Assembly: GCA_907163375.1 (NCBI GenBank)
Contig: CAJQUW010016173.1
Coordinates: forward strand, 233,757 to 297,756
DNA length: 64,000 nucleotides
Reading direction: 5' to 3'
DNA from: Prostheceraeus crozeri
Taxonomy: Eukaryota > Platyhelminthes > Polycladida > Euryleptidae
Within the stretch, counting starts at the first letter, position 1, and every line of letters starts with the position of its first letter. Under the pieces are notes generated by a model. It was not told the DNA's origin, made no database searches, and saw only the letters and a list, made by a program, of their open reading frames with translations. Of the stretch, positions 45,625 through 63,897 are shown one piece after another. Made by a program: the position numbers and the translations under genes.

Positions 45625-45630
45625 GATGGC

Positions 45631-46167: not shown

Positions 46168-46270
46168 GTCTAATGCTTTAACAATTGTCATTTCATCTGG
46201 AGTTCTTACAATTCCAGTAGTTGCTACTGCTTTAACTCGATACAAAATGAAAACACATTTCCATCTTTGA
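45950..46270 (+). pseudogene. Truncated TIR-borne copy of the 62859-63572 gene
   Basis: It starts like the right-hand gene (MEETKV, then IYPSLSYERSSTLMDIEKIN, then the coiled-coil KHKDRVRYMKDKESQL). It lacks about 20 codons after LRKRW and diverges after VVATALT, ending soon at 46270. Up to 46167 the DNA is nearly identical to the right copy; from 46168 to 46236 it matches at protein level but with several synonymous differences. So the TIR proper ends at 46167 and the rest is an older relic of the same gene. Confidence 0.75.
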
Positions 46271-46304
46271 AATATTTTATTCACATCACAGACAAGTACT
46301 ATGT

Positions 46305-46785: not shown

Positions 46786-46800
46786 GAGTAGCTTACCGTT

Positions 46801-47391: not shown

Positions 47392-47786
47392 TTTCGTTAA
47401 AAACGTAGTGAATTAATTATGATAAAAATAAAATTGTTGAAAGTCGCTGATGAAATCGACCAAAATAGATAAAGGTCACAGATGATTCGTAAGCAGACAC
47501 ACTCTCGTAGAACGCTCACAGAATGAATGCACGCAGTAATACGTGGAATAATTGCAGCAGCTGTTCAAGTGAAAAGTCATGAGTTATGCGGGTCATAAAG
47601 AATTCTCTCATACTGAATAGCTTAAACTTGTAGCAGCTGTTCATGTTGAGAAATTTGGTAACAGATGTTGCTAATGTCTTAATACAGATAAAACAATCAA
47701 TATCCTCTTAACAAGAGTTCATAAGAATAAAATGGAACAATGTAACGTTTTTAATTTAGATTAAATTAAATCATTTCAAAATCGAA

Positions 47787-48148
47787 TAAGTAGTAAGGAA
47801 AGACATCATTAGAGAACAGTTTTAAATCAATACCCCCTCCCTTCTGACTAAGTAGCAAGGAAAGTCATCATTGTGGAACAGTTTTAAATCAATACCCCCT
47901 CCCTTCTGACTAAGTAGTAAGGAAAGACAACATTAGAGAACAGTTTTAAATCAATACCCCCTCCCTTCTGACTAAGCAGCAAGGAAAGTCATCATTGTGG
48001 AACAGTTTTAAATCAATACCCCCTCCCCAGTAGTAAGGAAAGTCATCATTATAAAAATGTTTTAAATCAATACCCCCTTCTGACTAAGTAGTAAGGAAAG
48101 ACATCATTAGAGAACAGTTTTAAATCAATACCCCCCCCTCCTTCTGAC
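47787..48148. repeat. 62-bp tandem repeat, six copies of alternating subtypes
   Basis: Units begin TAAGTAGTAAGG or TAAGCAGCAAGG at 47787, 47849, 47911, 47973, about 48027 and 48085. Two subtypes (GACATCATTAGAG and GTCATCATTGTGG) alternate in the first four, giving a 124-bp higher-order period. Each unit ends in AATACCCCCTCCC, a C-run on this strand. The array sits just upstream of the protease start and is the largest non-coding gap in the element (47392-48184), so it is a candidate promoter or origin region. Confidence 0.9.
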
Positions 48149-48184
48149 TTCTAGGGGTCCCTTAAGAAATTTTTTTATTATAAA

Positions 48185-48673
48185 ATGAGCAACATAAATG
48201 AGTTTTTGAAATTATATGGAACACAGACAACAACGAATTTCGATTTAAATAAGATTGCTAATCAATTGGGAATAAAGAATTTTCACATATTGATGAGGGA
48301 TGAATTACAATTCCTAAAAAATAGGCCAACAGGAACCTTCAGTTCACGGAACAAAGTTCCATCAATAACTGTAAATTTCATAACAAATCTTCATACGTCA
48401 AATGAAAAAGGTGTACATTGGTCAGCAGGCGTTAAAAATTATCAGCAGAACTATTATTTTGACCGCCCGGAGGCTGAGAACTATTGGTTCGATTCATACG
48501 GTTTGCCCCCTACAAATGAAGTAAAAGAATTACTTGGAACGGGAACATACAATACGTTTCAAATTCAAACACCAGGCACTACTTATTGTGGACAATTATG
48601 TTTATACGTTTTGTACAAATTACAAAAAGGAGTACCATTTCTAGATATTATGTTAGAGTTAAACAATCTATAA
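48185..48673 (+). CDS. Adenain-like cysteine protease (Polinton maturation protease)
   Basis: 162 residues, the usual size for Polinton PRO. A C48/C5-type catalytic set is visible: His78 in GVHWSAG, Asp103 in YWFDSYGLPP, and Cys135 in TTYCGQLCLYVLY; the Gln for the oxyanion hole is probably in the QIQTPGTTYCGQ region. In adenoviruses and virophage-like elements this enzyme cleaves capsid and core precursors during maturation. It is on the plus strand and converges with the integrase gene (35 bp apart). The following spacer holds a hairpin-rich stretch (48675-48712). Frame intact, start ATG preceded by TATTATAAA. Confidence 0.9.
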   Translation: MSNINEFLKLYGTQTTTNFDLNKIANQLGIKNFHILMRDELQFLKNRPTGTFSSRNKVPSITVNFITNLHTSNEKGVHWSAGVKNYQQNYYFDRPEAENYWFDSYGLPPTNEVKELLGTGTYNTFQIQTPGTTYCGQLCLYVLYKLQKGVPFLDIMLELNNL

Positions 48674-48707
48674 CTCAAGCGAAGCTAGCTAAAGCGCCAC
48701 CTAAAGG

Positions 48708-50090
48708 TTAAAGCTCTGTTTTCTGTAATTCATTTTGATAAAAACGGCCTCTGATATCCTCATTATCTAAATCTTTAATTTCATAAGTAATCGGATAACT
48801 TTGATTTATTTTGCAAACTTCAAATATTTCTTGAGTCCAATAGCCAACAAAGCCTTTTTCAAATTTGTTCTTATATTTAAATATTCTAACTCTATCTCCA
48901 ATTTTAAATTTCGGCTTAAGTTTCTGCAAATTCGGATTACTCTCATTCGAATTATTATTCTCGAATATTTTCTTTCGTATCAAATCAGGGTCGTCAGAAG
49001 CATTCTTTGGAGTTTCTTCAATACCAGAATGAACTTTATTATTGTACTCTTCTACAATTCCTGGTAATATCTTCAACCATTTCTGATTTCTTTGCTCAGT
49101 AAATTTCTTGAATAATTTATTTTTTAACGTCCGATTGAATCTTTCTATCGATACGGCCTTCCCAGCGTTTTCAGTTGAATAAACAATTTCAAATAGTGGC
49201 TGAACGTTTCTGTTATAAAATTCCGACCCTTTATCAACAAACAATTTTTTTGGCTTTCTATTACTTTCTTTAAAGATTTCTTCAAACGCATATTTAACTG
49301 ATAGACCACTTTTATTTTTTAAAGGCTTTACCCAAGCGTATCGTGTATATAAATCTATAACGGTCAATGCGTATTTGTAGTCCCTTTCATTCGGCATATG
49401 AATAAGATCAGCACTCCAAATATCATCTTTATTAAATACTTTTACTTTTAATAAATATTTAGGCCTTCTGTATTCTTTATGAATTTCAGACGCGTAGGTT
49501 CGAGCGTTGCTCTCAGAGTTATTAGTTCGAGCGTTGCTCTCAGAGTTATTAGTTCGAGCGTTGCTCTCAGACAGCTTAGCTGTCGTTTCATTTAAACCCT
49601 GACCGAATAATATTTTAGCTTGTAAAGCTTTCTTAACAAACATTCTTTCAATTTTTTCTCTAAATGTAGGATTCTGAATACTATCTAATTCTTGAATCAT
49701 CTTCTTATCAGCTGCATGTCGAGAACTTAGATCATGATTTCGATAAGCTAAATCATGCCTGTAAGCTGCGGCATCTACTCTATTTATCGGTTCTTCACCT
49801 GGTTTCGGATTATTATTCTCATCTAGTCTTATATCTAATCGAGTTCCTGGACCGGTATATGAATGACCAGGAAGATGTTTTTCTTTCGAATATTTACTCC
49901 AAATAAATCCAGGAAAGTTTTCTAATGTTTTTTGTATGTCACCACCGTAGGTAGTAGCCAAACTTTGTTTGTCGTCGTTACCTTCATAAATTTTACAATT
50001 TGAGTTTTTATTTTTGTTTAATAGATAATTCAATAAATCTAAATTAGAAATTTTTAATTTAATTAAATTTTCGGAATTTTTAGTATTCAT
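48708..50090 (-). CDS. Fusion of parvovirus-type PLA2 domain and retroviral-type integrase
   Basis: I start at the ATG 50090 (460 residues) rather than an upstream TTG. Residues about 60-165 are a phospholipase A2-like domain as in adintovirus and parvovirus capsids: Ca-loop YTGPG (78-82), catalytic AYRHDLAY with His112-Asp113, then an Asp in HAADKKM. Residues about 173-200 are three 9-residue repeats, SESNARTNN. The integrase follows: IHKEYRRPKY, Asp228 (SADLIHM), Asp286 (FVDKGSEF), Glu316 (VSIERFNRTLK), then an SH3/chromo-like C-terminus (FKIGDRVRIFKYKNKFEKG). Integrase inserts the element; the PLA2 domain opens endosomal membranes in parvoviruses. The two are usually separate genes. The Asp-Glu gap is 29 residues, shorter than the usual 33-35. 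Confidence 0.85.
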   Translation of the reverse strand: MNTKNSENLIKLKISNLDLLNYLLNKNKNSNCKIYEGNDDKQSLATTYGGDIQKTLENFPGFIWSKYSKEKHLPGHSYTGPGTRLDIRLDENNNPKPGEEPINRVDAAAYRHDLAYRNHDLSSRHAADKKMIQELDSIQNPTFREKIERMFVKKALQAKILFGQGLNETTAKLSESNARTNNSESNARTNNSESNARTYASEIHKEYRRPKYLLKVKVFNKDDIWSADLIHMPNERDYKYALTVIDLYTRYAWVKPLKNKSGLSVKYAFEEIFKESNRKPKKLFVDKGSEFYNRNVQPLFEIVYSTENAGKAVSIERFNRTLKNKLFKKFTEQRNQKWLKILPGIVEEYNNKVHSGIEETPKNASDDPDLIRKKIFENNNSNESNPNLQKLKPKFKIGDRVRIFKYKNKFEKGFVGYWTQEIFEVCKINQSYPITYEIKDLDNEDIRGRFYQNELQKTEL

Positions 50091-50161
50091 TTTAAAAGAT
50101 AAAAAAATTAAGAAGATAAAAAAAATTGTTTTACCGAAAAGAACCAAAGGTCCTGAGGTTA

Positions 50162-50524
50162 TTACCGAATTATACTAGGACTTAGATATATTCCAGAACC
50201 ATCTTTAGTTTCTTTAATTTCAATTAAATCATCAACATTGTGGAGAATATTTTTAAGAACTCGTTTTCCTTCATCAACTAATTTTAATTTACTAATAAAA
50301 TTATCTACTATTCCTTCTCCCCTAGCAACTTTCTCTAACTCTCTGTTATGACGTTTTTGTTCTTCTAATGCTGCCTTCTCTGATTTATTTTTATTTACTG
50401 CTTGGACAATACCAGCTGTCCCACCTGCAACACTTCCTGCAGCTGCTATGCCACCTATTATTAGTGGAATTAATGGGAGAATCCCGCCATTCTTTTCTTC
50501 TTGTAATTGAATATTCTCTATCAT
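50162..50524 (-). CDS. Small membrane-active virion-like protein
   Basis: 120 residues, ATG at 50524. A glycine/alanine-rich hydrophobic stretch (GGILPLIPLIIGGIAAAG, then GTAGIVQAV) occupies residues 13-43. A basic coiled-coil-like part (KNKSEKAALEEQKRHNREL) follows and then an acidic C-terminus ending GSGIYLSPS. In adintoviruses and Polintons, short proteins of this build are compared with adenovirus pX/pVI-type core or membrane-lytic proteins. I place it there by build and position (between integrase and capsid), not by a specific motif. It starts 72 bp upstream of the integrase ATG on the same strand. Confidence 0.55.
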   Translation of the reverse strand: MIENIQLQEEKNGGILPLIPLIIGGIAAAGSVAGGTAGIVQAVNKNKSEKAALEEQKRHNRELEKVARGEGIVDNFISKLKLVDEGKRVLKNILHNVDDLIEIKETKDGSGIYLSPSIIR

Positions 50525-50649
50525 TGGTTTACTTATATAATACTTTTTTTATTAATCGTAATAGTTTTAGGGGTATTTTTGTCAACAATATTACGTAATT
50601 TTAATTCAACAGTTTTATTATTAATATTACTTTTCGCTTGCGACATTTT

Positions 50650-50815
50650 TAATAAAAAAATTTTAAGTTATCAAAAATTTAAATCTATTCTAGTTATGAA
50701 AAAATTTTAAGTTAAGAATTTTTTTTAATCTATTCTAGTTATGAAAAAATTTTTAAGTTAAGAATTTTTTAATCTATTCTAGTTATGAAAAATTTTTAAG
50801 TTATCAAAAAAATTA
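50650..50815. repeat. AT-rich tandem repeat, about 50 bp, 3-4 copies
   Basis: The block ATCTATTCTAGTTATGAAAA followed by TTTTAAGTTA recurs at about 50684, 50731 and 50771. It lies in the spacer between the capsid gene and the small membrane-active protein gene. Confidence 0.8.
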
Positions 50816-50902
50816 AATTAATTAAACGACGAAGTCTTGGGCTTTAGCCTATCGGACCAAAGGACCTCAGGTTACTAACCTATAGAACTTTGTTCAGAGG
50901 CT

Positions 50903-52237
50903 TTAGCCGATCCTAACCATCTTCCCATTAAGAACTTCAATAGAATATTTTGTATCTTCTAGCAATAAACCATAAGCCATCAATGAAGTTGTGGAATCTT
51001 TTTTTTCAATATTAATTGTTACATCACAACCATTTTTAATAATATCTTCAGATTGTGCACTTAAATCGAAACAGAAAATTGGATATAAATGTCTCCAATC
51101 TCCAGGAGTTAATTGTGGTTCAACTCCAAATTCTATACAAAGATTTCTATAAGAATCATATCCTTCCATAAATTGATTATTGGTATCATCGAATCTTAAT
51201 GGATCAATTGGATATCGAGTTTGATTTAATGAAACTTGTAAACTTCGAATTGTATTAATATGAAAAATATTATTGTTCTTATCAAAACTTGGAGAATTAT
51301 TTCTTTGAAAAGTTAGTAATAAATATCTTGGAGTATTCGCAGTTCTAGTAAAATGCCAGTTAAATCTTTGCTCGGAAAAAGTTACTGAACTAGCAGTTCT
51401 CTTTAGAAAATTAACTGGAATTGGTTTGTTAGTATTTAATCTTTTTGCAATAGCTGTTTCAACCTCTAAACTAGGAGTAATATGCCTAATCCACCATTCA
51501 AGTCTATCAATTTTTAAATATGCTTTTTTTCCAGTTTTACCAAAAAAGATTAATTCATTATTTGCTGTACGATGAATTATTAATTTAAATTTTAATTGAT
51601 ATGATATTTTATCATAATCTAAATATCCGAATAATGGAGACAATGACCAATTTACTGTCTGTTTACTTTTCTTGTTAAATTCACGTCTTTCTTTATATGC
51701 ATAATTATTTGTTTTATTTAACTGTTTTGCAATATTTTCTACATCTTTCGCAATTCCTGCGGCATCTGTTCCAGCGTGAGTTAAATCATCAATAATTATA
51801 CCATCATTAGTATCAGGAAACCAACCTTCGATTTCATGCTTTTTATTATTTTCACCAATTGTTACAAATCTAAGCATTGTATCAATTACACCTGGAGAAT
51901 CACTTATTGTTTCTATATTTTGAGTTGCAACATCTAAACGCATTTGTGTAAATAAACTTGGGAAAAAATTATTCTCTAGTGTAATATTATCGGTATCTGG
52001 TAATGGTGTTGTAAAATTAGCATCACTATATAAAGAATATTCACAGTGTAAAAATGAATCAGGTAAATATAAATAGCTCTGCTGATTATCAACTTCAAAA
52101 ATTAAATCTCCTCCAGCATTTACTCTACTGGAAGATCCGGGATTCATAGCAATTCTTATATAGTCATTCTTTTTTTGATTATAACTGACGAACGGAGGAT
52201 CGTCTAATCTAAATTTATTTTCGATAAGCGAAGACAT
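50903..52237 (-). CDS. Major capsid protein, double jelly-roll (hexon-like)
   Basis: The start is the ATG at 52237 (444 residues), not the GTG 36 nt upstream. Conserved Polinton capsid blocks are visible: a beta-rich N-terminal roll (YIRIAMNPGSSSRVNAGG, LYLPDSFLHCEYSLY), the internal signature SPLFGYLDYDKISYQLKF, then IDRLEWWIRHITPSLEVE and the second roll (LLLTFQRNNS, then GDWRHLYPIFCFDLS). Double-jelly-roll trimers form the icosahedral shell of adenoviruses, virophages and Polintons. Length is slightly below the 500-650 of many homologues, so one or more surface loops are short. A hairpin pair (50885-50908) spans its stop codon. Frame intact. Confidence 0.85.
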   Translation of the reverse strand: MSSLIENKFRLDDPPFVSYNQKKNDYIRIAMNPGSSSRVNAGGDLIFEVDNQQSYLYLPDSFLHCEYSLYSDANFTTPLPDTDNITLENNFFPSLFTQMRLDVATQNIETISDSPGVIDTMLRFVTIGENNKKHEIEGWFPDTNDGIIIDDLTHAGTDAAGIAKDVENIAKQLNKTNNYAYKERREFNKKSKQTVNWSLSPLFGYLDYDKISYQLKFKLIIHRTANNELIFFGKTGKKAYLKIDRLEWWIRHITPSLEVETAIAKRLNTNKPIPVNFLKRTASSVTFSEQRFNWHFTRTANTPRYLLLTFQRNNSPSFDKNNNIFHINTIRSLQVSLNQTRYPIDPLRFDDTNNQFMEGYDSYRNLCIEFGVEPQLTPGDWRHLYPIFCFDLSAQSEDIIKNGCDVTINIEKKDSTTSLMAYGLLLEDTKYSIEVLNGKMVRIG

Positions 52238-52332
52238 TTTTATAAAAAATAATTTGACTTTTGTTTTTCTCACAGATAGAAAAAAATTTTACTAAAAAAA
52301 TTACTAAAAAATTTTACTAAAATATAATTTTT

Positions 52333-52851
52333 AGAATTTTGCTAGACCAGCTCCGCTACAGCTTTGCTGGTTAGACCGAAGGTTGCTGCTCATACCATTA
52401 CCTCTTATTTCTTCAATTGTTTTTTCATTATGTTTACTATCACCATCCACAGCTATGTTAGCAATTTTGTTCTTTGTTTCATCTGAAAGTTTTTTTAAAT
52501 TTTTTAGTTCTTCAGATCATTCCTAAGTTTACGAATAGCTTCTAGTTGTTTTAATTCGTTTTGAGACTTGACAGCATTTGATATTGCACTAGCTGTACTA
52601 CCTATAGCAGCTGCTCCTTTTGCAGCAGATGTAATCAAATCTTTATTATTTTTAATTAAGTTAACGATACTACCAATACCAGAAAAGATGCCATCTCCTT
52701 CTTTTTGGACGGCACCTGCGGTGCCTAGGAACTTTTGTGTTCCGACAGTTTCTACACTATCATAATGGTACACAGGTTTCATAGATGGTTCATGAGCAAT
52801 TTTATTATTTGATGCAAAATGTTTAAGATTGTGTTTATAAATTATAGGCAT
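52333..52851 (-). pseudogene. Small capsid-associated protein gene, frameshifted near its end
   Basis: The ATG at 52851 opens a 115-residue frame ending at 52504. It has a hydrophobic glycine/alanine helix (FSGIGSIVNLIKNNKDLI, then SAAKGAAAIGSTASAIS) and a basic coiled tail, like adenovirus pVI-type membrane-active minor capsid proteins. A second minus frame, open from about 52516 to 52333, continues with the same kind of charged helical sequence (LKKLSDETKNKIANIAV) and ends in a Ser/Asn/Gln-rich tail carrying a double-hairpin (52359-52383). I infer a single-base frameshift near 52510-52517 in an originally longer gene. The function is inferred from build and position only. Confidence 0.5.
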
Positions 52852-52893
52852 TTTTTAGGATTAAATTTGACTTTTGGGAAAAATATCTACGTG

Positions 52894-53780
52894 TTAAGAT
52901 TTACGTTTGTGAATGGACAACAACTTCGAGATAACTTTATTAATTGACTGTTGCACTTTATCTATTGCGTCAAGCAGCGTGTGATGTACTTTAATTTCTT
53001 TTCTATTAACTTGCATTTTCTGCTGATTAATCTTCAATGCCGTTTTAAGAGCATTTAACTTAATTTTAAGAAGATCTAATTGTCTTTTAACAGAATCTAA
53101 CTGTTTCTTATTTTCTTTAGAGTTTTCTTGTAAATTTTTCTTTAATTCATTTTCTAAATTGATTTTAAGATTTTTCATTTTATCAACTTTTTCATTAAGT
53201 GAGTTTACTTCATTTATTATTCTATTCATCTTTTTCATTTGTTGAGTAATTTTAGAACTTAATTCATCAACACTTTTTTGGAATGTAGTTTGTAACTGCT
53301 TTAAATTTTTTTTAATTCTTTCAGGAAGTTTTTCTATTTCATCTTCTAATTGTTCTTTTAACATTTTTATCTGATGTTTATTTTTAATGACTGCAGATTT
53401 TAACTTTATAGAAAGTAATATTAAAATTTTTGATTGTTCTGAAATCTTTTTAAAAAGTTTTGCTATATCTGCTTCTAGCTCTCTATCCTTTTTATCAAGT
53501 TTTAATAATTTTTCGTTTAATGATTTGTCATTAAGTTTTAGCAACTTTAATTCATTCATCAGTGGAACCAAAACATCGTTTATATATTTTTCCTTTAATC
53601 ATTGATTTGTGTATCAACATATTGTTTATTTGTTAACTCTGTATTTTGTTGTGGAAGAATAGAAAGATGCAATGGACCAGATAAAACGTCTCCAGTTTTC
53701 ATAATATAATTTTCTATCTCTATTTCTAATTCACGATTATTCGGGATATATGCACCTCCACCAACATTTGGTAACATCAT
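52894..53780 (-). pseudogene. Fibre-like gene: tail-fibre-type N-terminus and long coiled coil, frameshifted
   Basis: The N-terminal frame (53780-53595, ATG start) ends with MKTGDVLSGPLHL and NTELTNKQYVDTQIN. This is the 'M-G-L-G-L...P-...T--YVD' motif of phage and eukaryotic-virus fibre shafts. The next frame (open from 53598; first ATG 53559; end 52894) is a heptad-rich coiled coil of about 220 residues (for example KLLKLDKKDRELEADIAKLF). The two overlap within a few bases in different frames, so I infer a single-base frameshift near 53597 in one gene of about 290 residues. A trimeric coiled-coil spike or fibre would sit on the capsid and bind hosts. No receptor-binding head is visible. Confidence 0.55.
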
Positions 53781-53787
53781 TTTTTAA

Positions 53788-53881
53788 CAATAAAAAAATA
53801 AAATTTTTTCTAATAAAAATAAAAAATAAAATTTTTTCTAATAAAAATAAAAAATAAAATTTTTCTAATAAAAATAAAAAA
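53788..53881. repeat. 31-bp AT tandem repeat in a divergent promoter
   Basis: Three copies of AATAAAATTTTTTCTAATAA lie between the divergent fibre-like and clamp-like genes. Both genes start at or next to the array, so it must include both promoters. Confidence 0.8.
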
Positions 53882-55180
53882 ATGGAAAAACCAAATTTAG
53901 AAAAATTATATTCGTCCGCATCATCCTGTTCTTCTTATTCGACGAGATCAACGGGATTTGAAAATAAATGTTTTGATAATAATAATAATAATAATCCATG
54001 TATAGATGTTAATATTTTATTTCAATTACAAGCCGAAATATTTAGAGAACAGACTAAAGGTTTACCTTCTATAGAAACTAATTATTGTTTATTTCCAGGT
54101 GATCCATTTATTAAATTTATGGAGATTGTTAGTAAATATAATGATGTAGCTTATGTGGAATTAAATAAAGAAAATATGGTTATAATAGGTCATAATAATG
54201 TTTATGGATTTATTAGAGCAGTGTTACCAATTAGTAATACTGATTGGAGAGAAACTAAAATTATTAATTATATCAATATTAAAGAATTAGTTAAAAAATT
54301 AAAATCTTTTTCGAAAGAAAAAATTAGATTATTTGTTGACGATCAAAATCAATATAACATTCATATAGAGAGTAAAAAACATAATGAAGAATTATTATGT
54401 CAAGTTTATTATAGAGACACAATTTATAAACAAGAAACATTAGAAATGCCGCAAAGATATGATGATGATACGTATATAGGATTATATTCAAACTTAAATA
54501 TTAATTTGTTAAAATCTTACATAAATGGCTTAGCTCAACAAGAAAAAATTTATATGTGGACAACACCTTATACTATTAACAATGACCATAATCATATTCA
54601 TAATAAACGAACCGAAGGTTCTAGGGCTTTGCCCGATCTTAAAGAATCTTATGATAATATAGATGATGATTCTGAAACATCTGAAAAAGGTGTAAATGGT
54701 AAAAAAGATTATAAAAATATTAGTAATTATAAAAATTTATCTAAATTTCATTTTCTTACAATTGAAAATAATAATGATGGTATAGTTGAAGATACTGTTA
54801 GACAACTATGTGTCGGGTCTACAAAATTTAAATTAGGATTTACATCTAATCAATTTAAAATTTTATTATCTTTAACAAAAACTAAAAGTGATTCAGATTA
54901 TGGTGGTGTTATTAAATTTTCCAAAAGAGATCAAAGACCAATATTTTTCTCTATTATATTATTAACAGATAAAAGATGTAATTTAGAATTAGATATTCCA
55001 ATAAGAGAATGGTATCCTATCATGGAAGGGCATCCTATACCAAAAAGTGTAATTTATGATGATGAAGAAACAATTTATGATGATGATGAAGAAACAATTT
55101 ATGATGATGATGATGAATCAATAGTTAGTGAAAAAAAATTTAAATTATCTTTTGATAAAACATTATATGATGAAACTTAA
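53882..55180 (+). CDS. Hypothetical protein, possibly a divergent sliding clamp
   Basis: 432 residues, ATG start, intact. After a Ser-rich, low-complexity N-terminus there is a region of clamp-like order: FIKFMEIVSKYNDVAYVELN, then IINYINIKELVKKLKSFSKE and RLFVDDQNQYNIHIES, which resembles the first PCNA domain ('L-K-L------I-L-AEDN---L-I-FE'). A matching second part (KFKLGFTSNQFKILLSL, then PIFFSIILLTDKRCNLELD) is separated by an Asn/Asp-rich insert holding a double-hairpin cassette (54611-54634). The C-terminus has three acidic repeats (ETIYDDDE type). It sits 189 bp upstream of the polymerase on the same strand. Clamp homology is inference from pattern, not a firm match. Confidence 0.45.
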   Translation: MEKPNLEKLYSSASSCSSYSTRSTGFENKCFDNNNNNNPCIDVNILFQLQAEIFREQTKGLPSIETNYCLFPGDPFIKFMEIVSKYNDVAYVELNKENMVIIGHNNVYGFIRAVLPISNTDWRETKIINYINIKELVKKLKSFSKEKIRLFVDDQNQYNIHIESKKHNEELLCQVYYRDTIYKQETLEMPQRYDDDTYIGLYSNLNINLLKSYINGLAQQEKIYMWTTPYTINNDHNHIHNKRTEGSRALPDLKESYDNIDDDSETSEKGVNGKKDYKNISNYKNLSKFHFLTIENNNDGIVEDTVRQLCVGSTKFKLGFTSNQFKILLSLTKTKSDSDYGGVIKFSKRDQRPIFFSIILLTDKRCNLELDIPIREWYPIMEGHPIPKSVIYDDEETIYDDDEETIYDDDDESIVSEKKFKLSFDKTLYDET

Positions 55181-55184
55181 TAAG

Positions 55185-55240
55185 ATAAAACTTAATATGA
55201 TAAAACTTAATATGATAAAACTTAATGTGATAAAGAAAAA
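55185..55240. repeat. 18-bp tandem repeat after the clamp-like gene
   Basis: GATAAAACTTAATATGATAA recurs about three times directly after the stop codon, the last part of the gene having the same ATGATGAAAC-like sequence. Confidence 0.7.
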
Positions 55241-55369
55241 AAAATAACTAAAGAACGTGAAATATATAGTAATATAAAATAACACTCAAGTCCTTGATAT
55301 TAGAATGTTTATATCTAAAATTAAAACACAAATTTTTTTCTTAAATTTTCTATAAAAAAATAAAAAAAA

Positions 55370-58300
55370 ATGGAAAATACCAAGTTTTATTGTGTCTTAT
55401 GTAAAAAAAAGTTGCAAACAAAAAGAAGTTATCAATCTCATTTAAATAGTAAATTGCATTTACAAAATGTAGAACGAGTTGATGAAGGAAATATATTAAA
55501 ATTAAATAGTTATAAAAACTATCTAGAAACATTGCCTACTGATATAAAAGTTAAAAAAATGTTTGATGATTATTCACATTCGGAATATAAAAAAGTTTTT
55601 AATAGTGAAGATGAGACCATACAAACCGAAGGTTCTAGGGCTTCGCCCGTACCAGATGGAAGATATTTATTTAGCGATACTGATGAATTTAACGAAATAG
55701 ATGAATTTGATGAAGCCGAACGAACCGAAGGTTCTAGGGCTTCGCCCATAACAGATATAAAATATTTATTTAATGAATCGGTTCGAACCGAAGGTTCCAG
55801 GGCTTCGCCCGTTGAACATAATGAAACCGATAAAACTTTTTATAATGTATTAACAAACTTTTATAATATATTTAAGAAATCTTTCAAATGTTATATGAAT
55901 GTAGAAGTACTTTATACAAAAAATGGACCTGATGGAATTCCTGAAGAAATAATACAAGGACATTTTACAAATTCACAAGAAATTCATAATGTAAATGATA
56001 TACAACCCATATTTGAATCGATGATACTTAAATTAGAAAATTGTATAATTGAAGCCCAGTTACGTGAATCTGGTTGGAGATTTGTTAAAATACTATCTAA
56101 GAAAATAGTAATTGATAAATATAAAAATAATACTGGTGGTAGTTATGTTCCTTTACCTTTCAGTTCACCACAAATAATCAACATAAAAAATGAAGATGAT
56201 TATTGTTTTCTGTGGAGTATTATAGCACATTTACATCCTGCAGAATATCATAAAGAAAGACTAAGTCATTACAATAAAGAAGAATACATAAATGAATTTG
56301 ATCTCTCTGATGGCTTAGATGAATTTCCATATGATTATAATAGGTTAATAAAGTTTCATAAAAAGAATAAAAATTTAATAGAAGTAAATGTTTTTGAATT
56401 AAATGTGAATTATGTTTCTATTGGTAAAATTACTCCACTTTACTCAGATTCAAAAAAATTTTATTTGAATAATAAAAATTTATGTCAATCAGAAATAGTA
56501 TATAATGATAGAGGAAATTACATGCATCATAATATTTTTTACCAAGGAAATATAATATGTACTGAAAAATTTGAACTTGTTAAAACATTATCACCAATAA
56601 TGATTAATCATAATAATTATAAAGGACGTACTGATGATTATAATTACAAATATTCATCTTTATCTTCAGAATATCAACAAAAATTAGAAAATTTAAATAA
56701 AAGTTTACAAAAATGTAAAACAGATTATCAACAACAAACAAAAATATTAGTACAAGAATATGGCCATAAATATGAAAATAAGATAGAAACGATTCAAAAA
56801 TTAAATGAAGAAAATAATGAATTAAATAATGAAGAAAATGAAACCAATCAAAAAATAAATGAATCTTTAAGAAAATGTCTACAACAATATAAAGAACAAT
56901 ATGATAAAGAATATATTTATCAGCTACAAATATTAAATCAAAATTATCATCAAAATACATTTAATATTACAAAAGAAATTAATGAAACACATGAAATATA
57001 TCAAGATAAATTTGAAAAACTAGAACAGTCAAAACAACCAGCACAAGCGAATATATTATATTATCAGGGACATTTTATATTGTGTAAAGATGTTTCTATA
57101 TTTACAAAAACTTCAGATAATAAAAATTTTCCTTGTCTTCAATGTATGACAAGTTTTAGAACTTTAGAAGAAATGAATAGACATTTGGAGAATTGTCAAC
57201 AAAACGAAGCAGTTCAAAATACTTTTCCAAAAGATGATTATTTAGAATATAATAAATGGTATTTTAAAAATAAAGTACCCTTTACTATTTATTGTGATTT
57301 TGAAGCATATAATGTTAATATGACACAAAATCAAACGGAAAGTTCCGGGGCTTCACCCGATTCTGAAAATTATAATTCTGAAAATGGTACGGGCCAAGCC
57401 CTAGAACCTTCGGTTTGTAATTATGAAAAAAGTGCGCCTGAAAAAAGTGCACCTGAACAAAGTAAAGAAAAATATTTATTTGAACAAAAACCATTATGTT
57501 GGGGAATGTACATTCATTCAAATTATCCTGAATTATTTAAATCAGAATATTTTCAATACTATGGTGAAGATAGTTCAGAAATGTTTACAAAGAAAGTAGA
57601 AGAATTACAAGGACGTTTTTCACAATTGCTTGAAACAAATATACCGATGATGCCATTAACAGAAAAAGAAAAATTAAATTTTATTAATGAAACAAAATGT
57701 TATTACTGTGGAAGAGAATTTACAAAAAATTATAAAAATGGCAAAGGTAGATATCTTGATAGGCGAAGCGACGGCTCTGCCGTCAAGGTAAAAGATCATG
57801 ATCATCTAAATGGATTATATAGAGGTGCAGCACATAATTCTTGTAATCTTAATGCTAATAAATTTAAATATAACTTTGTTCCTTTATATTTCTATAATGG
57901 TTCTAAATATGATTTCCATCTAGTAATGAAAGATTTATTTTCATCTGAAAAACTACAACAACAAAAAATAAATGTACTATGTAAACAAGAAGAAGAATAT
58001 TTTTCAATGCAATTAGGTTGTATTAGAATTTTAGATGCATTTAGATTTTTTACTCCTTATTCATTAGATGTTATGGGAAAAACTTTGAAATCTGAACAAT
58101 GTAAAATATTAAATAAATATAATTTAAAACCTTTAAAAGGCATATTTCCGTATGAGTATATAGCCTGCGGCTCACAGTCGAAGACTGATATAACTGGAGA
58201 TAAAACCTGTGGTTCACAGTCGAAGACTGATTTTAATTCTGTGAATAAAATTATGGAAGAAGAACAACTTCCTCCAATAAATAAATTTAAATCAACATTA

Positions 58301-60064
58301 AAACAATCACAATTATCAGACGAAGACTATGCAGAAGCTGAAAAGAATTGGAGAGAGTTAAATTGTAAAACAATGTATGATTATACAATGAAATATCTTC
58401 AGATAGATGTATTAATACTAGCTGATCTTTTCGAAAACTTTCGTGATATGTGTTTAGAATATTACGGAATAGATCCATGTTATTGTTATTCTACACCAGG
58501 TTTAACATGGTTAGCAGGATTAAAACATACTGGTGTTCAAGCCGATGGCTCTAGGACAAAGTCCGTTAAACTTAAACATTATAAAGAAAATACATATGAT
58601 AAATTATTATTTTTTGAATCTGGAATTAGAGGTGGAGTTTCATCAGTTTTAGGTAATAGATATGTTAAATGTTATAATAAGAAAGTAAATCCACATACAT
58701 ATGGAATAATGAAACCTTTATCTCCAGAAGAAAAAGAAAAGATATTAGAAATTTTTCGAACGAAACAAGAAGGAGTAGAACGTGAAAAAGCAATTGATGA
58801 ATTCATGAGAGAAAACTATTTGTTATATTATGATTTTAATAGCTTATATTCTTCTTGCATGATACAAGAATTACCAACAGGTGAAATGACATGGTGTAAT
58901 AATCGAACCGAAGGTTCTAGGGCTTCGCCCGATCTAGATTATCAAAGAACATATGATGGTGAAAATAATTTTGGTTATGTATATGAAGTTGATTTAGTAT
59001 ATCCTGATTATATAAAAGACGCAACAAAATATTATCCTTTCTGTCCAGAAAACAAAATTCCCAATATAGAAGATTTTTCAGATTATCAAAAATCTATAAT
59101 ACCGAAAAAATACAGACCAACAAAAAAACTTATGTTAACACAAGGTAATAAAGGAAAGTATGTTGTTGAAGGAAGAATGCTAGATTGGTATTTAGATCAT
59201 GGCATGATTCTCACCAAAATACATCGAAAACTAGAGTATAGAAAATCTAAATGGTTAAAAAATTATGTAGAGTTCAATATTGAAAAACGTAAAATAGCTA
59301 AAAGAAATAAAGATGATTTTGGAAACGTTTTCTTCAAATTAATGAATAATGCATTTTATGGTAAGACTTTAGAAAATGTGCGTAATAGACAAAATATTGA
59401 AATAGTTTATGATAGAGATAGATTTCAAAATTTAACAAGGAAACCTACATATAAAAGAACTACTAGATTCAGTGATGAACTTTGTGCTGTTCATTTAAGA
59501 AGAAGCATTGTAAAACATGATAAGTTTAATTTCATTGGTTTCACTATATTAGAATTAGCTAAACTATTTATGTATAGATTTATATATGATTATTTAGCAC
59601 CTGCTTATGGCAAAAACTATAAATTACACTTTACAGATACCGATTCTATTTTCTTAGAATTAACAATACCGTATAATTCTACACTTGATGAAGAAATTAA
59701 TAAAATAAAAGATATCATTCATCCTTCTGATTTATGTAAAGTAAAAGATGAATTAGAAGGAAATGAAGATTTCATAACAGAAGCTATATTTTTAAAATCT
59801 AAATGTTATTGTTATGATACAACTAATAATATTAAAACACATAAAACATTAAAAGGAATTTCAAAGGCATCAGTGGCTAATCAAATAACATTTCAAGATT
59901 ATAAAAATGCATTATTTAATAATGAAATAAAAACAGCATGTAATTATAGACTTAATTCAAAAAAACATAACATGTATTTAAAAGAAGAACATAAATTAGC
60001 ATTAGATCCATTTGATGATAAAAGAAAAATTTTACCTGATGGAATAACTACTGAACCTTTTTAA
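55370..60064 (+). CDS. Protein-primed family B DNA polymerase (Polinton pPolB), with in-frame hairpin cassettes
   Basis: 1564 residues, intact. A C2H2 finger opens it (FYCVLCKKKLQTKRSYQSHL), then the Polinton N-terminal domain (about 160-400), a coiled-coil insert (about 430-560), and a second finger (CLQCMTSFRTLEEMNRHLENC, about 580). The exonuclease has Exo I YCDFEAYN (about 642) and Exo II-like NGSKYDFHL. Between them is an endonuclease VII-like CYYCGREF ... DHDHLNGLYRGAAHNSCN. Polymerase motifs: A YYDFNSLYSSC (about 1154), B KLMNNAFYGKT (about 1322), C FTDTDSIF (about 1421). It replicates the element using a terminal protein as primer. Nine or so 24-nt double-hairpin cassettes encode RTEGSRASP-like or GSQSKTD-like peptides within it; none hits a catalytic motif. 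Confidence 0.95.
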   Translation: MENTKFYCVLCKKKLQTKRSYQSHLNSKLHLQNVERVDEGNILKLNSYKNYLETLPTDIKVKKMFDDYSHSEYKKVFNSEDETIQTEGSRASPVPDGRYLFSDTDEFNEIDEFDEAERTEGSRASPITDIKYLFNESVRTEGSRASPVEHNETDKTFYNVLTNFYNIFKKSFKCYMNVEVLYTKNGPDGIPEEIIQGHFTNSQEIHNVNDIQPIFESMILKLENCIIEAQLRESGWRFVKILSKKIVIDKYKNNTGGSYVPLPFSSPQIINIKNEDDYCFLWSIIAHLHPAEYHKERLSHYNKEEYINEFDLSDGLDEFPYDYNRLIKFHKKNKNLIEVNVFELNVNYVSIGKITPLYSDSKKFYLNNKNLCQSEIVYNDRGNYMHHNIFYQGNIICTEKFELVKTLSPIMINHNNYKGRTDDYNYKYSSLSSEYQQKLENLNKSLQKCKTDYQQQTKILVQEYGHKYENKIETIQKLNEENNELNNEENETNQKINESLRKCLQQYKEQYDKEYIYQLQILNQNYHQNTFNITKEINETHEIYQDKFEKLEQSKQPAQANILYYQGHFILCKDVSIFTKTSDNKNFPCLQCMTSFRTLEEMNRHLENCQQNEAVQNTFPKDDYLEYNKWYFKNKVPFTIYCDFEAYNVNMTQNQTESSGASPDSENYNSENGTGQALEPSVCNYEKSAPEKSAPEQSKEKYLFEQKPLCWGMYIHSNYPELFKSEYFQYYGEDSSEMFTKKVEELQGRFSQLLETNIPMMPLTEKEKLNFINETKCYYCGREFTKNYKNGKGRYLDRRSDGSAVKVKDHDHLNGLYRGAAHNSCNLNANKFKYNFVPLYFYNGSKYDFHLVMKDLFSSEKLQQQKINVLCKQEEEYFSMQLGCIRILDAFRFFTPYSLDVMGKTLKSEQCKILNKYNLKPLKGIFPYEYIACGSQSKTDITGDKTCGSQSKTDFNSVNKIMEEEQLPPINKFKSTLKQSQLSDEDYAEAEKNWRELNCKTMYDYTMKYLQIDVLILADLFENFRDMCLEYYGIDPCYCYSTPGLTWLAGLKHTGVQADGSRTKSVKLKHYKENTYDKLLFFESGIRGGVSSVLGNRYVKCYNKKVNPHTYGIMKPLSPEEKEKILEIFRTKQEGVEREKAIDEFMRENYLLYYDFNSLYSSCMIQELPTGEMTWCNNRTEGSRASPDLDYQRTYDGENNFGYVYEVDLVYPDYIKDATKYYPFCPENKIPNIEDFSDYQKSIIPKKYRPTKKLMLTQGNKGKYVVEGRMLDWYLDHGMILTKIHRKLEYRKSKWLKNYVEFNIEKRKIAKRNKDDFGNVFFKLMNNAFYGKTLENVRNRQNIEIVYDRDRFQNLTRKPTYKRTTRFSDELCAVHLRRSIVKHDKFNFIGFTILELAKLFMYRFIYDYLAPAYGKNYKLHFTDTDSIFLELTIPYNSTLDEEINKIKDIIHPSDLCKVKDELEGNEDFITEAIFLKSKCYCYDTTNNIKTHKTLKGISKASVANQITFQDYKNALFNNEIKTACNYRLNSKKHNMYLKEEHKLALDPFDDKRKILPDGITTEPF
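55625..55810 (+). repeat. Cluster of three double-hairpin cassettes in the polymerase N-terminal region
   Basis: Copies at 55625-55648, 55724-55747 and 55787-55810. Each has a first stem ACC/GGT with loop gaa, a 4-nt spacer (TCTA or TCCA) and a second stem GGGC/GCCC with loop ttc. All are in the same frame and encode TEGSRASP. Confidence 0.85.
57335..57784. repeat. Hairpin cassettes in the middle of the polymerase gene, one inverted
   Basis: A decayed copy is at 57335-57358. An inverted copy at 57391-57414 keeps both stems (GGGC/GCCC with a changed loop, then ACC/GGT) and is read as ALEPSV instead. A different hairpin at 57770-57784 has a 6-bp stem GACGGC/GCCGTC with loop tct and sits inside the endonuclease VII-like motif, between the CYYC and DHDH parts. 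Confidence 0.75.
58163..58930 (+). repeat. Variant double-hairpin cassettes in the polymerase palm region, with compensatory changes
   Basis: 58163-58186: stems GCC/GGC and AGTC/GACT, spacer TCAC. 58205-58228: stems ACC/GGT and AGTC/GACT, spacer TCAC. 58541-58564: stems GCC/GGC and GGAC/GTCC, spacer TCTA. 58907-58930: stems ACC/GGT and GGGC/GCCC, spacer TCTA. The stems change on both sides together while the 3-nt loops and 24-nt length stay constant. Confidence 0.85.
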
Positions 60065-60148
60065 TTTTCTAATTTCTAAGATAGACAAATTTGATATATA
60101 TATATAAAATAAAAAAAAATATTGTAACACTATATTTGTATATTTTTA

Positions 60149-60916
60149 TCACTCCGCGAAAATATTTTCGATAACTCTTTCATGAATTTTTTTATCAATA
60201 TTAATTGTAATGAAGCCATAATCTTTTGACCAAGCATTATTACACGATTGTTTAAATTCATCTTTATTTCTTACGCATAAATCTCTTAACAAATCACTTA
60301 AGTTTCTTGCATTTATTTCAAATAGTATAAATATATTTGCATTCTTTCTAATAACACTTCCGTCTAATGAATACATACTTTGTGTTAAATAAAATACACT
60401 ACAGTTATTATGTCTACCTCTTGTGAAATAATTTCTCTGAACTGACTGATTTCTATCATTAACACAATCATCAAAAATTACACAATGTTTCATTGTTTTA
60501 TCTAGTTTACTAGGATCTTGCATATTACCACTATCATCTATTAATTGTATCTTTATATGGTTATTTTTATTAGATTCTACTAACTGATTATTTTTTGCTG
60601 CTTCTTCACACCACGAACTTATTTCTTCTTCATCTTCAGATTTTTCATATTCTTTGAATAATGAAGCAATTGCTGTTTTTTTAAGATTATTTTCAAATCC
60701 ATATTTTAAAAATTGATAGACGGGTTGTTCTGCCGTTGTTGTATAAATTATAAGATTGTTATAATCCAAAAAATTTGGAGTCGTTAAAATTTTAAATAAT
60801 AAATACGTTTTTCCGCAACCTGATCTTCCACAAATAACTGACAAAACTTTATTAGATAAATTTGGATGATGATTAAATTTAAGTTTTTTTTTATTTAATG
60901 GTAGTACTTCACTCAT
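60149..60916 (-). CDS. FtsK/HerA-type DNA-packaging ATPase
   Basis: 255 residues, ATG at 60916, intact. Walker A is VICGRSGCGKTYLL (residues 28-41) and Walker B is KHCVIFDDCVND (hydrophobic strand ending in Asp-Asp) near 147-158. A following sensor-like NYFTRGRHNNCSVFYLTQ and arginine-rich ARNLSDLLRDL complete the pattern of virophage and Polinton packaging ATPases, which pump DNA into preformed capsids. It is transcribed toward the polymerase end (85 bp convergent gap) and is preceded by the minor capsid gene, as is common in these elements. Confidence 0.9.
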   Translation of the reverse strand: MSEVLPLNKKKLKFNHHPNLSNKVLSVICGRSGCGKTYLLFKILTTPNFLDYNNLIIYTTTAEQPVYQFLKYGFENNLKKTAIASLFKEYEKSEDEEEISSWCEEAAKNNQLVESNKNNHIKIQLIDDSGNMQDPSKLDKTMKHCVIFDDCVNDRNQSVQRNYFTRGRHNNCSVFYLTQSMYSLDGSVIRKNANIFILFEINARNLSDLLRDLCVRNKDEFKQSCNNAWSKDYGFITINIDKKIHERVIENIFAE

Positions 60917-61004
60917 TTTTTAATAAAAAAATTTATTTTTATTTTTTTTATTTTTTGTTTCTAAAGAAGAAGAAAATTAAACTTCTCTAGCTTCGCGTAG
61001 GAGT

Positions 61005-61793
61005 TTATACCTCCCGAACCAAAAGATCTATCATAATCTCTTCACCTCCAAAATTTATTTCTTGTCCTTTTTCATCAGTGATTCTAATGCCAATGTTGTT
61101 AATAGTTTTTCTTGTAATAGGAAAATATATTAATGTTTGTGGAATTACATTTAATCTATAACCAATGGGTACAGTAAAAGCTGGAAAACTGAATATTAAA
61201 TTTGATAATTTACCATTTATATATCCTCCTTCAATAATGTCACAATGTACAACAATTGAATTTATTTCAGTTATTTTTGGAATCTTCTCACCTAAATGAT
61301 AACCTTGACTATAGGTTTGTTTATTAAATCCTAATAGCTTTGACAATGATCTATCATGATTAAAATCAACTTGATGATTTTCGTCTAAAGTAAGAGAAAA
61401 TTTATTAACTGCCGGTTCAACTGCAAAATGTAATTGTTTCTTATCTTTAAATGATATACCTAAATGTCTCTTAATTTCATTTGATATTGATTCAACTTCG
61501 TAAGAACCAGGAAGAAAAGTTAGTATTTTCCATGTTTTGCCTTTATCAGTAGAATATCTAAATTGATCATTCACATCTTTGATAACGTTTTGAATAGTGT
61601 TAAATGTAGAGAAACTAGTCAATGCAATTTGATAATTTTTATTTTGTTCCAAATGTAGAATGGGTTCTAAATTACAAGTGTGTGATGAAGTAGTTGTTAT
61701 AATTTTTAACGTCGTACTAAATTTTGATGAACCCAAAATCTCTATCAAATTTTCTAAATGATTATTAATTTTGTCTAAATCTGCTGAACACAT
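61005..61793 (-). CDS. Minor capsid protein, single jelly-roll (penton-like)
   Basis: 262 residues, ATG at 61793, intact. Beta-rich throughout with the Polinton penton blocks: IALTSFSTFNTIQNV, then LPGSYEVESISNEIKRHL, SLSKLLGFNKQTY, INSIVVHCDIIEGGYING and a C-terminal RITDEKGQEINFGGEEIMIDL. Its single jelly roll would form the five-fold vertices beside the hexon-like protein encoded at 50903-52237. It lies 89 bp upstream of the ATPase on the same strand. Confidence 0.85.
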   Translation of the reverse strand: MCSADLDKINNHLENLIEILGSSKFSTTLKIITTTSSHTCNLEPILHLEQNKNYQIALTSFSTFNTIQNVIKDVNDQFRYSTDKGKTWKILTFLPGSYEVESISNEIKRHLGISFKDKKQLHFAVEPAVNKFSLTLDENHQVDFNHDRSLSKLLGFNKQTYSQGYHLGEKIPKITEINSIVVHCDIIEGGYINGKLSNLIFSFPAFTVPIGYRLNVIPQTLIYFPITRKTINNIGIRITDEKGQEINFGGEEIMIDLLVREV

Positions 61794-61799
61794 TTTTTA

Positions 61800-61996
61800 G
61801 TTAAAATTTTAAATAAATATTTTTTTATGAAATATTTTTTTTTTATAAAAAATTAAAAACAACAACATATTTCAGCTACGGGCGAAGCCCTTAAAGACAT
61901 CAGAGATGTCCGGTTATACTTTTATAATCCTCTTCATTTAGAATCTTCTTTTCTAACAGTCTTTTCAATATAGCATGAATTTCATTGAAACTAGAA
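61800..61996. repeat. Spacer with a double hairpin
   Basis: GGGC/GCCC with loop gaa (61880-61890) is followed after TTAAA by a 6-bp stem GACATC/GATGTC with loop aga (61896-61910). It is the same hairpin class as the coding cassettes but in a non-coding spacer. Confidence 0.7.
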
Positions 61997-62722
61997 TTAA
62001 TGTCCTTCTTTTATTGCAGATATTAAAATATTTAATCTATTTAGTAATTCTTGTGGATCATCTGGTAAAAATACAGTTGTTTCAGTTTTCTGTTTTTCAG
62101 ATAAACCTTTCCCTACTTTAACTCCCGTTGATAATAAATTTTCTAATTGTTTATAACGTCTAAGAGATTTTACTGCACCAACTCTGTCTAACATAGCTTT
62201 ATATTTTATGAGATCTTCTACAGCATAATTATTTAAATCTGCTCCTCTTAAAAGATTAACAAAATTTCTATCTAAATTAAAAGGAGATTTATCTGGTGAA
62301 AAAATTAAACCTCGAAAAGGTTGTGGAAATATTTCTTTTTGTCCGAGATAAAATCTAGGTATTGTTTTTCCATCTATAAATGAGATAGAATGTTCAAATT
62401 GCATAGATTTTGGTAAGTTCTTATTAATGTTTGATTCTAGTAATCCATAGTCATCTAATACAGTTTTGTGCTCTGGATCTGTTATATCAATTTGTTTATC
62501 ATTATTTGTACTTTCTTTTTCAAGAGTTTTAAATGGTTTCATAGTTTTCTCAAAATCAGTTTTTACTTGCTCGGTTTGCTGCATTTTTTCAAACATATCA
62601 GATTGAATACCAGCTTTTATCATTCTATGTTGAAGATGATTTTCTTTCATAATATTTCTTTGTTTTATTAACTCTTCTAATTGTTTTATTCTTTTAAAAT
62701 TATCAGCTCTAATTTTATTCAT
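61997..62722 (-). CDS. Polinton-associated conserved protein of unknown function
   Basis: I choose the ATG at 62722 (242 residues), which follows a poly-A/T stretch like other starts in the element; a TTG and an ATG lie further upstream. The N-terminal third is a coiled coil (FKRIKQLEELIKQRNIM). The C-terminal part has the order DGKTIPRFYLGQKEI, a turn-rich stretch, then LLRGADLNNYAVEDLIKYKAML. This follows the pattern of a conserved Polinton/adintovirus protein with 'G-FYLG---I ... Y-GT-GLW-LI ... YT-EDL--Y--IL', whose role is unknown. Only weak similarity, judged by eye. Confidence 0.5.
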   Translation of the reverse strand: MNKIRADNFKRIKQLEELIKQRNIMKENHLQHRMIKAGIQSDMFEKMQQTEQVKTDFEKTMKPFKTLEKESTNNDKQIDITDPEHKTVLDDYGLLESNINKNLPKSMQFEHSISFIDGKTIPRFYLGQKEIFPQPFRGLIFSPDKSPFNLDRNFVNLLRGADLNNYAVEDLIKYKAMLDRVGAVKSLRRYKQLENLLSTGVKVGKGLSEKQKTETTVFLPDDPQELLNRLNILISAIKEGH

Positions 62723-62858
62723 TTTTAAAATATAATATTTGAATTTTGTGGTAACATTGGAATACAGCAAAAACATTTTACTGAACAAATTATTTTTTTA
62801 TTGCTTTGTTGTTTGACATCTTTTCGTTTAAAGTTTTCTCGGTTAAAGTTTTCTCGTT

Positions 62859-63572
62859 TTAAGTTTTGTTTAATAAAGTTTTGCTTAAATTTTCGCTTAA
62901 AGTTTTTAGCTCTTCTAAAAAAATTTTGTCATTTTCTTCATTAGAAATTTTACCATCACTCGAAATTTTGCCATCCTGTTTATTCTTATCATCAACTTTT
63001 TCTGACTGTAATTGAAATGATATTTGATTTACTTCATTAGCTATTTGATCAAATTTTTCAATCTCATCTAACGTAATAACATTATCATCACATACTCTTT
63101 GAAAGTAGTAATGTAGTTTATCATAGACTTCTTTAATATGTAAATGCTTAGTTTTCAATGATTTTCGTTTCTTAGTTATTAAAGATTTATCTAACATTGT
63201 AACAAGTGAAGTTGCAAAAACACCCGTACCTGTTAAAGCTGTAGCAACTACTGGAATTACTAAAACACCTGAAGATATAACAATTGTCAAAGCACCTAAA
63301 CTTATTGTTAAGAATATGCCAATTCCTTGTGTTACATTCTTAACTTTAGTCCATCTCTTTCTTAATTTTTTATAATGCTCTAATCTTAATAATAATTGAG
63401 ATTCCTTATCTTTCATATACCTAACTCTATCTTTGTGTTTTTCTTTATTCATTTTTTCAATGTTAATCTTTTCAATGTCCATTAAAGTAGAACTACGTTC
63501 ATATGATAACGAAGGATATATTCTTGCGGTTTCTTCCATTTCTGAAGTTCCTTCCACTTTTGTTTCTTCCAT
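62859..63572 (-). CDS. TIR-overlapping membrane protein with coiled coils
   Basis: 237 residues from the ATG at 63572 (a longer TTG start is less likely). A basic coiled coil (INIEKMNKEKHKDRVRYM, then LLLRLEHYKKLRKRW) precedes two or three hydrophobic helices (IGIFLTISLGALTIVISSG, VLVIPVVATALTGTGVF), a basic stretch (SLITKKRKSLKTK) and a charged tail with NVITLDEIEKFDQI. Proteins of this build recur near Polinton ends, where I know them only as conserved membrane proteins of unknown role. Its 5' half lies in the TIR, so a truncated twin is present at 45950-46270. Confidence 0.6.
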   Translation of the reverse strand: MEETKVEGTSEMEETARIYPSLSYERSSTLMDIEKINIEKMNKEKHKDRVRYMKDKESQLLLRLEHYKKLRKRWTKVKNVTQGIGIFLTISLGALTIVISSGVLVIPVVATALTGTGVFATSLVTMLDKSLITKKRKSLKTKHLHIKEVYDKLHYYFQRVCDDNVITLDEIEKFDQIANEVNQISFQLQSEKVDDKNKQDGKISSDGKISNEENDKIFLEELKTLSENLSKTLLNKT

Positions 63573-63891
63573 TTTTAAATGAATATTTTGAATAAATATT
63601 TTGAATAAATATTTTGAATACAATCTTCTGGTATATTGAGACTACGTGATATTTTGAGACAACTTAAATTTTCGTCTGCCTAAATTTTCAAAATTCATAG
63701 ACCACGTGATATTTTGAGACAACTTAAATTTTCGCCCTTCGGCCACGTGAAATTTGAAATCTACCTAAATTTTTGAAATTTTGATTTTTTTGAAAATTTT
63801 GAAAACCCCCGCAAAAGTGTGACATCCGGCGCAAGCGAAGCGAAGCAAAGCGAAGCGAAGCGTCGCGCCGGATGTCACACTATAAACTACT
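63354..63891 (-). repeat. Polinton right terminal inverted repeat
   Basis: Inverted copy of 45631-46167. It carries the 16-bp terminal hairpin (63817-63832 and 63865-63880) and ends CTATAAACTACT, then the duplication GATGGC (63892-63897). Confidence 0.9.
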
Positions 63892-63897
63892 GATGGC

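Follow-up and report, generated by a model that had tools for sequence, protein, structure and literature searches.

A Polinton (Maverick), a virus-like transposon, in the genome of the polyclad flatworm Prostheceraeus crozeri carries short GC-rich cassettes that form paired hairpins within AT-rich surroundings. They were analysed in a window of 64,000 nucleotides (assembly GCA_907163375.1, contig CAJQUW010016173.1, positions 233,757 to 297,756 of the forward strand), from whose first letter all positions below are counted. The cassettes are probably mobile double-hairpin units of about 28 bp, repeatedly inserted into this Polinton family with duplication of a 2-bp A+T target. Among Polinton copies they are precisely present or absent as 30 bp, share one unit boundary with a target duplication, lie in either orientation, carry compensated stem changes and fall into several families of one geometry. 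An earlier note, made from the letters alone, had suggested either mobility or selection at the DNA or RNA level; mobility has the support of the 30-bp differences and the 2-bp duplications, while the RNA level is not, the loops being, if anything, of DNA type.

According to the earlier note, each cassette consists of a 3-bp stem with a 3-nt loop, a 4-nt spacer and a 4-bp stem with a 3-nt loop. A strict scan for this geometry, admitting Watson-Crick pairs only, was used with shuffled sequences in place of a covariance model. Nine of the ten named copies pass it (54611, 55625, 55724, 55787, 57391, 58163, 58205, 58541 and 58907), that at 57391 in the opposite orientation, as had been claimed. 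The tenth, at 57335, fails with one pair broken in each stem and is a decayed copy; the same site holds an intact family A unit in two other Polinton copies. Across the open reading frames (ORFs) between 53882 and 60064, the scan over both strands gives 18 matches with a GC content of at least 0.5, which are the nine copies, each counted twice. One hundred dinucleotide shuffles average 0.010 such matches and never exceed 1. The excess over shuffled sequence, a comparison named beforehand as one of two refuting tests, is therefore clear. The 45.6 kb to the left of the Polinton yield 2 GC-rich matches for a shuffle mean of 0.8, which is near chance. Parts of the original description have to be amended: in all but one of the 10 window copies stem 1 is 4-5 bp long, and what is inserted is a unit of 28 bp, not of 24 bp, together with a duplication of 2 bp of the target, so that the reading frame is kept as stated but 30 nt and 10 residues are added instead of 8.

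The same note had expected mobile cassettes to be cleanly present or absent at single sites among relatives from the same genome, and this is what the alignments give: single cassettes come and go between gap-free flanks, mostly as exactly 30 bp. With the piece 58700-59100 as query, a first look at the genome gave 2322 candidates; 40 of them were scored and 30 fetched, including the window itself (L014). The fetched pieces are the copies closest to a query holding the 58907 cassette, hence a non-random sample. Around 58160-58230, where 29 distinct copies were aligned (L040 was left out), both of the cassettes 58163 and 58205 are present in 22, the first only in 3, the second only in 1 and neither in 3, so all four combinations occur, with each cassette accounting for 30 bp; L026 has 12 additional bp in this region. 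L005 lacks the cassettes at 55724 and 55787 on a background identical at 1919 of 1924 aligned bases. A gapped pattern spanning 58907 has 515 matches in the genome; the 100 places listed include 9 with the cassette, 90 without it and 1 further empty place that has an extra AT, and filled and empty alleles differ by 30 bp. When 41 pieces were compared all against all, 84 contexts with an insert of 20-70 bp emerged: exactly 30 bp were found in 34 of the 55 contexts with GC of at least 0.45 and in 3 of the 16 with GC below 0.38, although these contexts are not independent events, since sites recur and a few plain tandem-repeat differences are included. The one empty place at which an additional AT stands in the 58907 site (contig C2173:676008-676047) may be either the footprint of a precise excision of the 28-bp unit or a product of slippage.

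The boundary of the unit was examined by looking for equal 2-mers on its two sides with 49 choices of border at 15 distinct sites (TIR2 not included). A separate tally of unit flanks covers 17 of 19 contexts, since E_L045 and A_L052, which match as well, repeat sites already counted. When the 24-mer is extended by 3 nt at its start and by 1 nt at its end, equal 2-mers, and thus a short flanking direct repeat, are present at 12 of the 15 sites, or at 13 if the L063 allele, with flanks TA/TA, represents site 55724. None of the remaining 48 choices gives more than 5 sites, no choice gives equal 3-mers at more than 5, and the background rate of 2-bp matches in the ORFs is 0.117. Because a single border choice stands out in this way, the unit is taken to be 28 bp long; its most frequent form is C(G/A)...G, and insertion duplicates AT, TA or TT at the target.

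Five families, A (CGAACCGAAGGTTCTAGGGCTTCGCCCG), B (58163, 58205), C (58541), D and E (48464), all consist of 28 nt with two hairpins 2-3 nt apart (Table 1); family D is known from L003 and L005, at two unrelated sites. Other GC-rich inserts of 24, 31, 33 and 38-39 bp (57761, L047, 48326, 61880 and L053) fold as hairpins, mostly paired ones; the L047 insert is the counterpart of window position 60167, and the 39-bp insert, related to family G, sits in the polymerase ORF of L053. Further GC-rich double-hairpin families likewise vary by presence and absence among Polinton copies.

Table 1. Positions of the inserted units and of their host element in the window. Labels made of L and a number denote compared pieces; lengths in brackets are those of the missing segment.
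Feature	Position	Strand	Location and flanks	Remarks
Polinton/Maverick with cassettes, ~18.3 kb	45631..63891		Long terminal inverted repeats	Borders read by eye
Polinton 6-bp target duplication, GATGGC	45625-45630 and 63892-63897
Double-hairpin insert, 33 bp, family H	48326..48358			Absent in L045
Family E unit, 28 bp	48464..48491	-	ORF 48185-48673; flanks AC/AT in window	Target duplication AT in L045; absent (30 bp) in L008 and L044 (one contig stretch)
Family A unit	54608..54635	+	ORF 53882-55180; flanks AA/AT	Absent in L002 (30 bp), L048 (31 bp)
Family A unit	55622..55649	+	Polymerase ORF; target duplication TA	Absent in L002, L048 (30 bp)
Family A unit	55721..55748	+	Flanks AA/TA	Absent in L001, L002, L005, L048 (30 bp)
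Family A unit	55784..55811	+	Target duplication TT	Absent in L005
Decayed family A unit	57332..57359	+	Target duplication AT	Intact in L055, L064
Family A unit, opposite orientation	57390..57417	-	Target duplication TA; borders ambiguous, 15-bp tandem repeats around unit	Absent as 30 bp in L029, L031, L042; as 45 bp in L030, L036, L043
Endonuclease-VII-like segment	57668..57850	+	Polymerase ORF	Weak match, candidate structure-specific nuclease
GC-rich hairpin insert, 24 bp	57761..57784		Endonuclease-VII-like segment	Absent in 7 compared loci
Family B unit	58160..58187	+	Target duplication AT (window allele)	Absent in L022, L031, L041, L043 (30 bp)
Family B unit	58202..58229	+	Target duplication AT	Absent in L022, L027, L029, L039, L041, L043 (30 bp)
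Family C unit	58538..58565	+	Target duplication TT	Found by strict scan; further copies genome-wide
Family A unit	58904..58931	+	Target duplication AT	Present in 9 of the 100 places listed in the genome
Double-hairpin insert, 38 bp, family G	61880..61917		Between ORFs	Absent in L047

That both sides of a stem change together, as the earlier note had read from the window, holds for the 14 distinct units compared: compensated changes affect 5 of 9 pairs (10 cells), with no one-sided change. Out of 500 shuffles none reached the covariation score and one reached the number of doubly changed pairs, and both values fall when the stem partners are slid out of register. The two neighbouring family B units differ in one stem 1 pair, G-C at 58160..58187 and A-T at 58202..58229. 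Pairing is thus maintained among source units and not at every resting place, since resting copies mutate in their stems and one-sided changes are seen. A pattern with a base other than A at the first stem position has 685 + 594 genome matches against 0 + 2 for its control; the matches listed are mostly family C and tell little about independent events. With regard to the loops, C-GNA-G or its complement accounts for 11 of the 16 hand-listed three-nt loops (11 of 17 if the TTT loop of family H is counted; loops of 4-5 nt were outside the tally). According to PMC4686876, GNA loops on G-C stems, e.g., GCGAAGC, form DNA mini-hairpins that are extraordinarily stable and withstand nucleases. Since loops of this type are known as stable DNA mini-hairpins, those of the cassettes favour, without proving it, folding as single-stranded DNA, and the families may share ancestry. 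The loops GAA and TTC of the family A unit at 58907 are complementary, and the L044 variant has GTA and TAC, again complementary, which would allow the two loops to make contact in either case; families B and C have no complementary loops.

The 18-bp core GGNTCTAGGGCTTCGCCC has 2431 + 2306 = 4,737 exact copies in the 2.05-Gb genome, and its reversed control has none. Twenty places, picked by the author from 100 listed core matches (the earliest by contig order), all proved to be Polinton sequence: the polymerase ORF holds 8 of them, and the other 12 fall in repeats of the terminal-repeat side that are common to pieces bearing Polinton genes. A genome search for family A copies followed by ATA or ATG, that is, in new contexts, gave one match, the known terminal-repeat context with altered flanks. 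For these two reasons the observed cassette copies are seen to occupy few sites and to have multiplied together with Polintons; a very active spread of the cassettes themselves is not upheld, the distinct sites being few. In L003, L006 and L047 the terminal-repeat-side copy of family A is tandemly amplified with a spacing of about 108-197 bp. The cassette 24-mer has no match in viral contigs, exact or relaxed, and the relaxed form has none in 84,980 prokaryote genomes. Five viral contigs (L009-L013) that match the 18-mer core were rejected as unrelated: they lack stem 1 and share a near-identical context.

As for the coding effect, the two ORFs contain nine copies in plus orientation, and these share a single codon phase. 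Families A, B and C each have two stop-free phases in plus orientation, and for this reason the peptide is under selection that at a minimum filters the insertions. The unit does not owe its origin to the peptide, because the terminal-repeat-side units (TIR1, TIR2 and D), which lie outside the compared ORFs, show a like unit and duplication. The cassettes would survive in genes since a 30-nt insertion keeps the frame and provides a stop-free segment. A further insert, of 24 bp at 57761, falls within the endonuclease-VII-like segment of the polymerase ORF. The label "clamp-like" given to ORF 53882-55180 finds no supporting Pfam match.

Several observations weigh against repeated insertion of a mobile 28-bp unit. 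The boundary was derived from the very sites that are used as its support, and 3 of the 15 target duplications are imperfect. For GAGTAC copies at 58163 (e.g., L027), a unit of 27 bp with a duplicated ATA is the better fit, so that borders of single sites are ambiguous, and a 3-bp repeat is also present at some other sites. The number of distinct sites is small: family A has nine of them among the pieces compared, or ten once the L044 variant is counted, and family C has one. The genome search for other family A contexts of AT type added only the known context already mentioned. Individual units fold just 1.0 to 2.4 standard deviations below shuffles, 17 of the 126 stem cells in the 14 distinct units are unpaired, and the number of further pair types was reached by 59 of 500 shuffles. 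Mutations within a site are uncompensated, with six one-sided changes of the outer stem pair in 100 listed rows (three in family A and three in family C).

The fewness of sites, common to most copies seen, would also be expected if the insertions were ancient and were now merely lost or reshuffled by recombination and gene conversion among Polintons, without current mobility. A distance of 42 bp separates the two family B sites, and the 12 additional bp of L026 resemble the result of a local exchange. Recombination, however, mixes alleles of one site and does not place one sequence at nine or ten sites, mostly with a 2-bp duplication; moreover, empty alleles hold a single copy of the target and no remnant, except for the one with an extra AT. 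This alternative is considered unlikely. Still lower is the probability that the repeat belongs to the protein level, a hydrophilic RTEGSRASP-like peptide being selected as a linker and the hairpins being a by-product of codon choice: the common codon phase of nine out of nine copies, despite two stop-free phases, speaks for it, but copies outside the compared ORFs on the terminal-repeat side, the inverted copy in the polymerase and the covariation of stem pairs make it very improbable.

Hairpin-prone DNA favours errors of end joining and template switching, and the inserts are short, with some lengths differing (24, 31, 33 and 38-39 bp), so templated insertion through error-prone repair or replication has also been weighed; an identical 28-bp boundary at unrelated sites and in different families leaves it with hardly any probability. 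A reverse transcriptase copying hairpin RNA is the route proposed for yeast GC42 and Allomyces elements, as set out in parts of PMC4478555 and PMC2800124. For the Polinton cassettes it appears quite unlikely, given that many loops are of the DNA-stable type and that the units listed show neither tail nor truncation.

If the cassettes are mobile at the DNA level, they would travel as hairpins of single-stranded DNA. Polinton replication, which is protein-primed and displaces a strand, would probably expose such hairpins, and their insertion at staggered nicks would be the work of a nuclease supplied in trans. One candidate for this nuclease is the endonuclease-VII-like segment of the Polinton polymerase, which matches phrog_423 (E 0.0032, residues 767-827) and PF02945 (E 0.00096; 19.5 bits, below the cut-off of 23.6). 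Enzymes of the endonuclease VII family cut branched and hairpin DNA, and it is on the ground of this family activity that the segment is put forward as a candidate and nothing further. The full proposal, that 28-bp double mini-hairpins are recognised by shape and not by sequence and are moved in single-stranded form while a virus-like element replicates, with that element providing the nuclease in trans, is tentative and somewhat more likely to be wrong than right. If true, the cassettes would be among the smallest transposing DNA units of any nuclear genome, writing short peptides into the genes of their host element. The mechanism is testable by sequence and biochemistry, because thousands of nuclear copies, filled and empty alleles on near-identical backgrounds and a defined boundary are available.

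Hairpin mini-elements are known from organelles and from Rickettsia. The palindromic elements of Rickettsia resemble the Polinton cassettes as in-frame, hairpin-forming inserts in protein genes, but are bacterial and longer. The repetitive extragenic palindromes REP and REPIN are small hairpin units as well, thought to be moved as single-stranded DNA by RAYT transposases in trans; in contrast to the cassettes they are bacterial and mostly intergenic, and no RAYT-type transposase is found among the family matches of the window. Submariner elements, which are miniature inverted-repeat transposable elements (MITEs), are linked to a known transposon family and are larger than the cassettes. In comparison with a classical MITE, the unit described here has two internal hairpins and no long terminal repeat. 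The Submariner MITEs of Pandoravirus, named in PMC5799277, appear there as small inverted-repeat elements, some within genes of a large DNA virus, and in this they are similar to the cassettes.

The closest likeness is to mitochondrial systems. For yeast mitochondrial GC clusters, the available description in PMC4478555 gives AG or ACT as the flanking repeats of the most abundant kinds and a presence that differs among strains. These clusters share with the cassettes GC-rich hairpins in AT-rich DNA, clean presence and absence and a short flanking direct repeat. They differ in size (42 bp for GC42 against 28 bp) and in flanks (AG/ACT against AT, TA or TT targets), as far as that description extends (PMC4478555). 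The clusters are mitochondrial, whereas the Polinton units belong to a nuclear virus-like transposon, with Polinton sequence in large contigs, and sit largely inside long ORFs. In Allomyces and sponge mitochondrial DNA, elements of adjacent hairpins with complementary substitutions between element types are reported in sections of PMC2800124, and adjacent hairpins and complementary changes are features of the cassettes too; unlike the latter, the Allomyces elements are mitochondrial and are stated in the same sections to be without flanking duplications. The best reading is that the Polinton cassettes work like mitochondrial GC clusters and double-hairpin elements, i.e., as DNA-level mini mobile elements, of which they would be a nuclear counterpart, set apart as a variant by their nuclear location, their smaller size, their different targets and their position largely within ORFs. 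Such insertion of structured DNA shows a route by which virus-like elements can gain in-frame peptide segments. Among the literature matches listed there is no report of such inserts in Polintons.

The host element has all the features of its class, namely type B polymerase, integrase, capsid, ATPase, terminal inverted repeats and a 6-bp target duplication; family searches of the window identified an rve integrase, a double-jelly-roll protein, a Pox_A32-like ATPase and a DNA_pol_B_2 type-B polymerase. No relative of the polymerase was confirmed in viral contigs, where a polymerase motif pattern has 0 matches, and a sequence search of PDB with a piece of the polymerase gave none; Rfam and tRNA scans of the window were likewise without matches. 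ORF 48708-50147 fuses a phospholipase A2-like domain (residues 89-169) with an rve integrase core (241-317). Outside the Polinton, at 30284-35709, arrays of a 343-bp tandem repeat lie in inverted arrangement. On contig C6227, COX1 has 8 internal TGA codons and the surrounding open frame of 612 codons contains 19 AGA codons; several codes were tried, and the author reads the mitochondrial code of this gene as one of invertebrate type.

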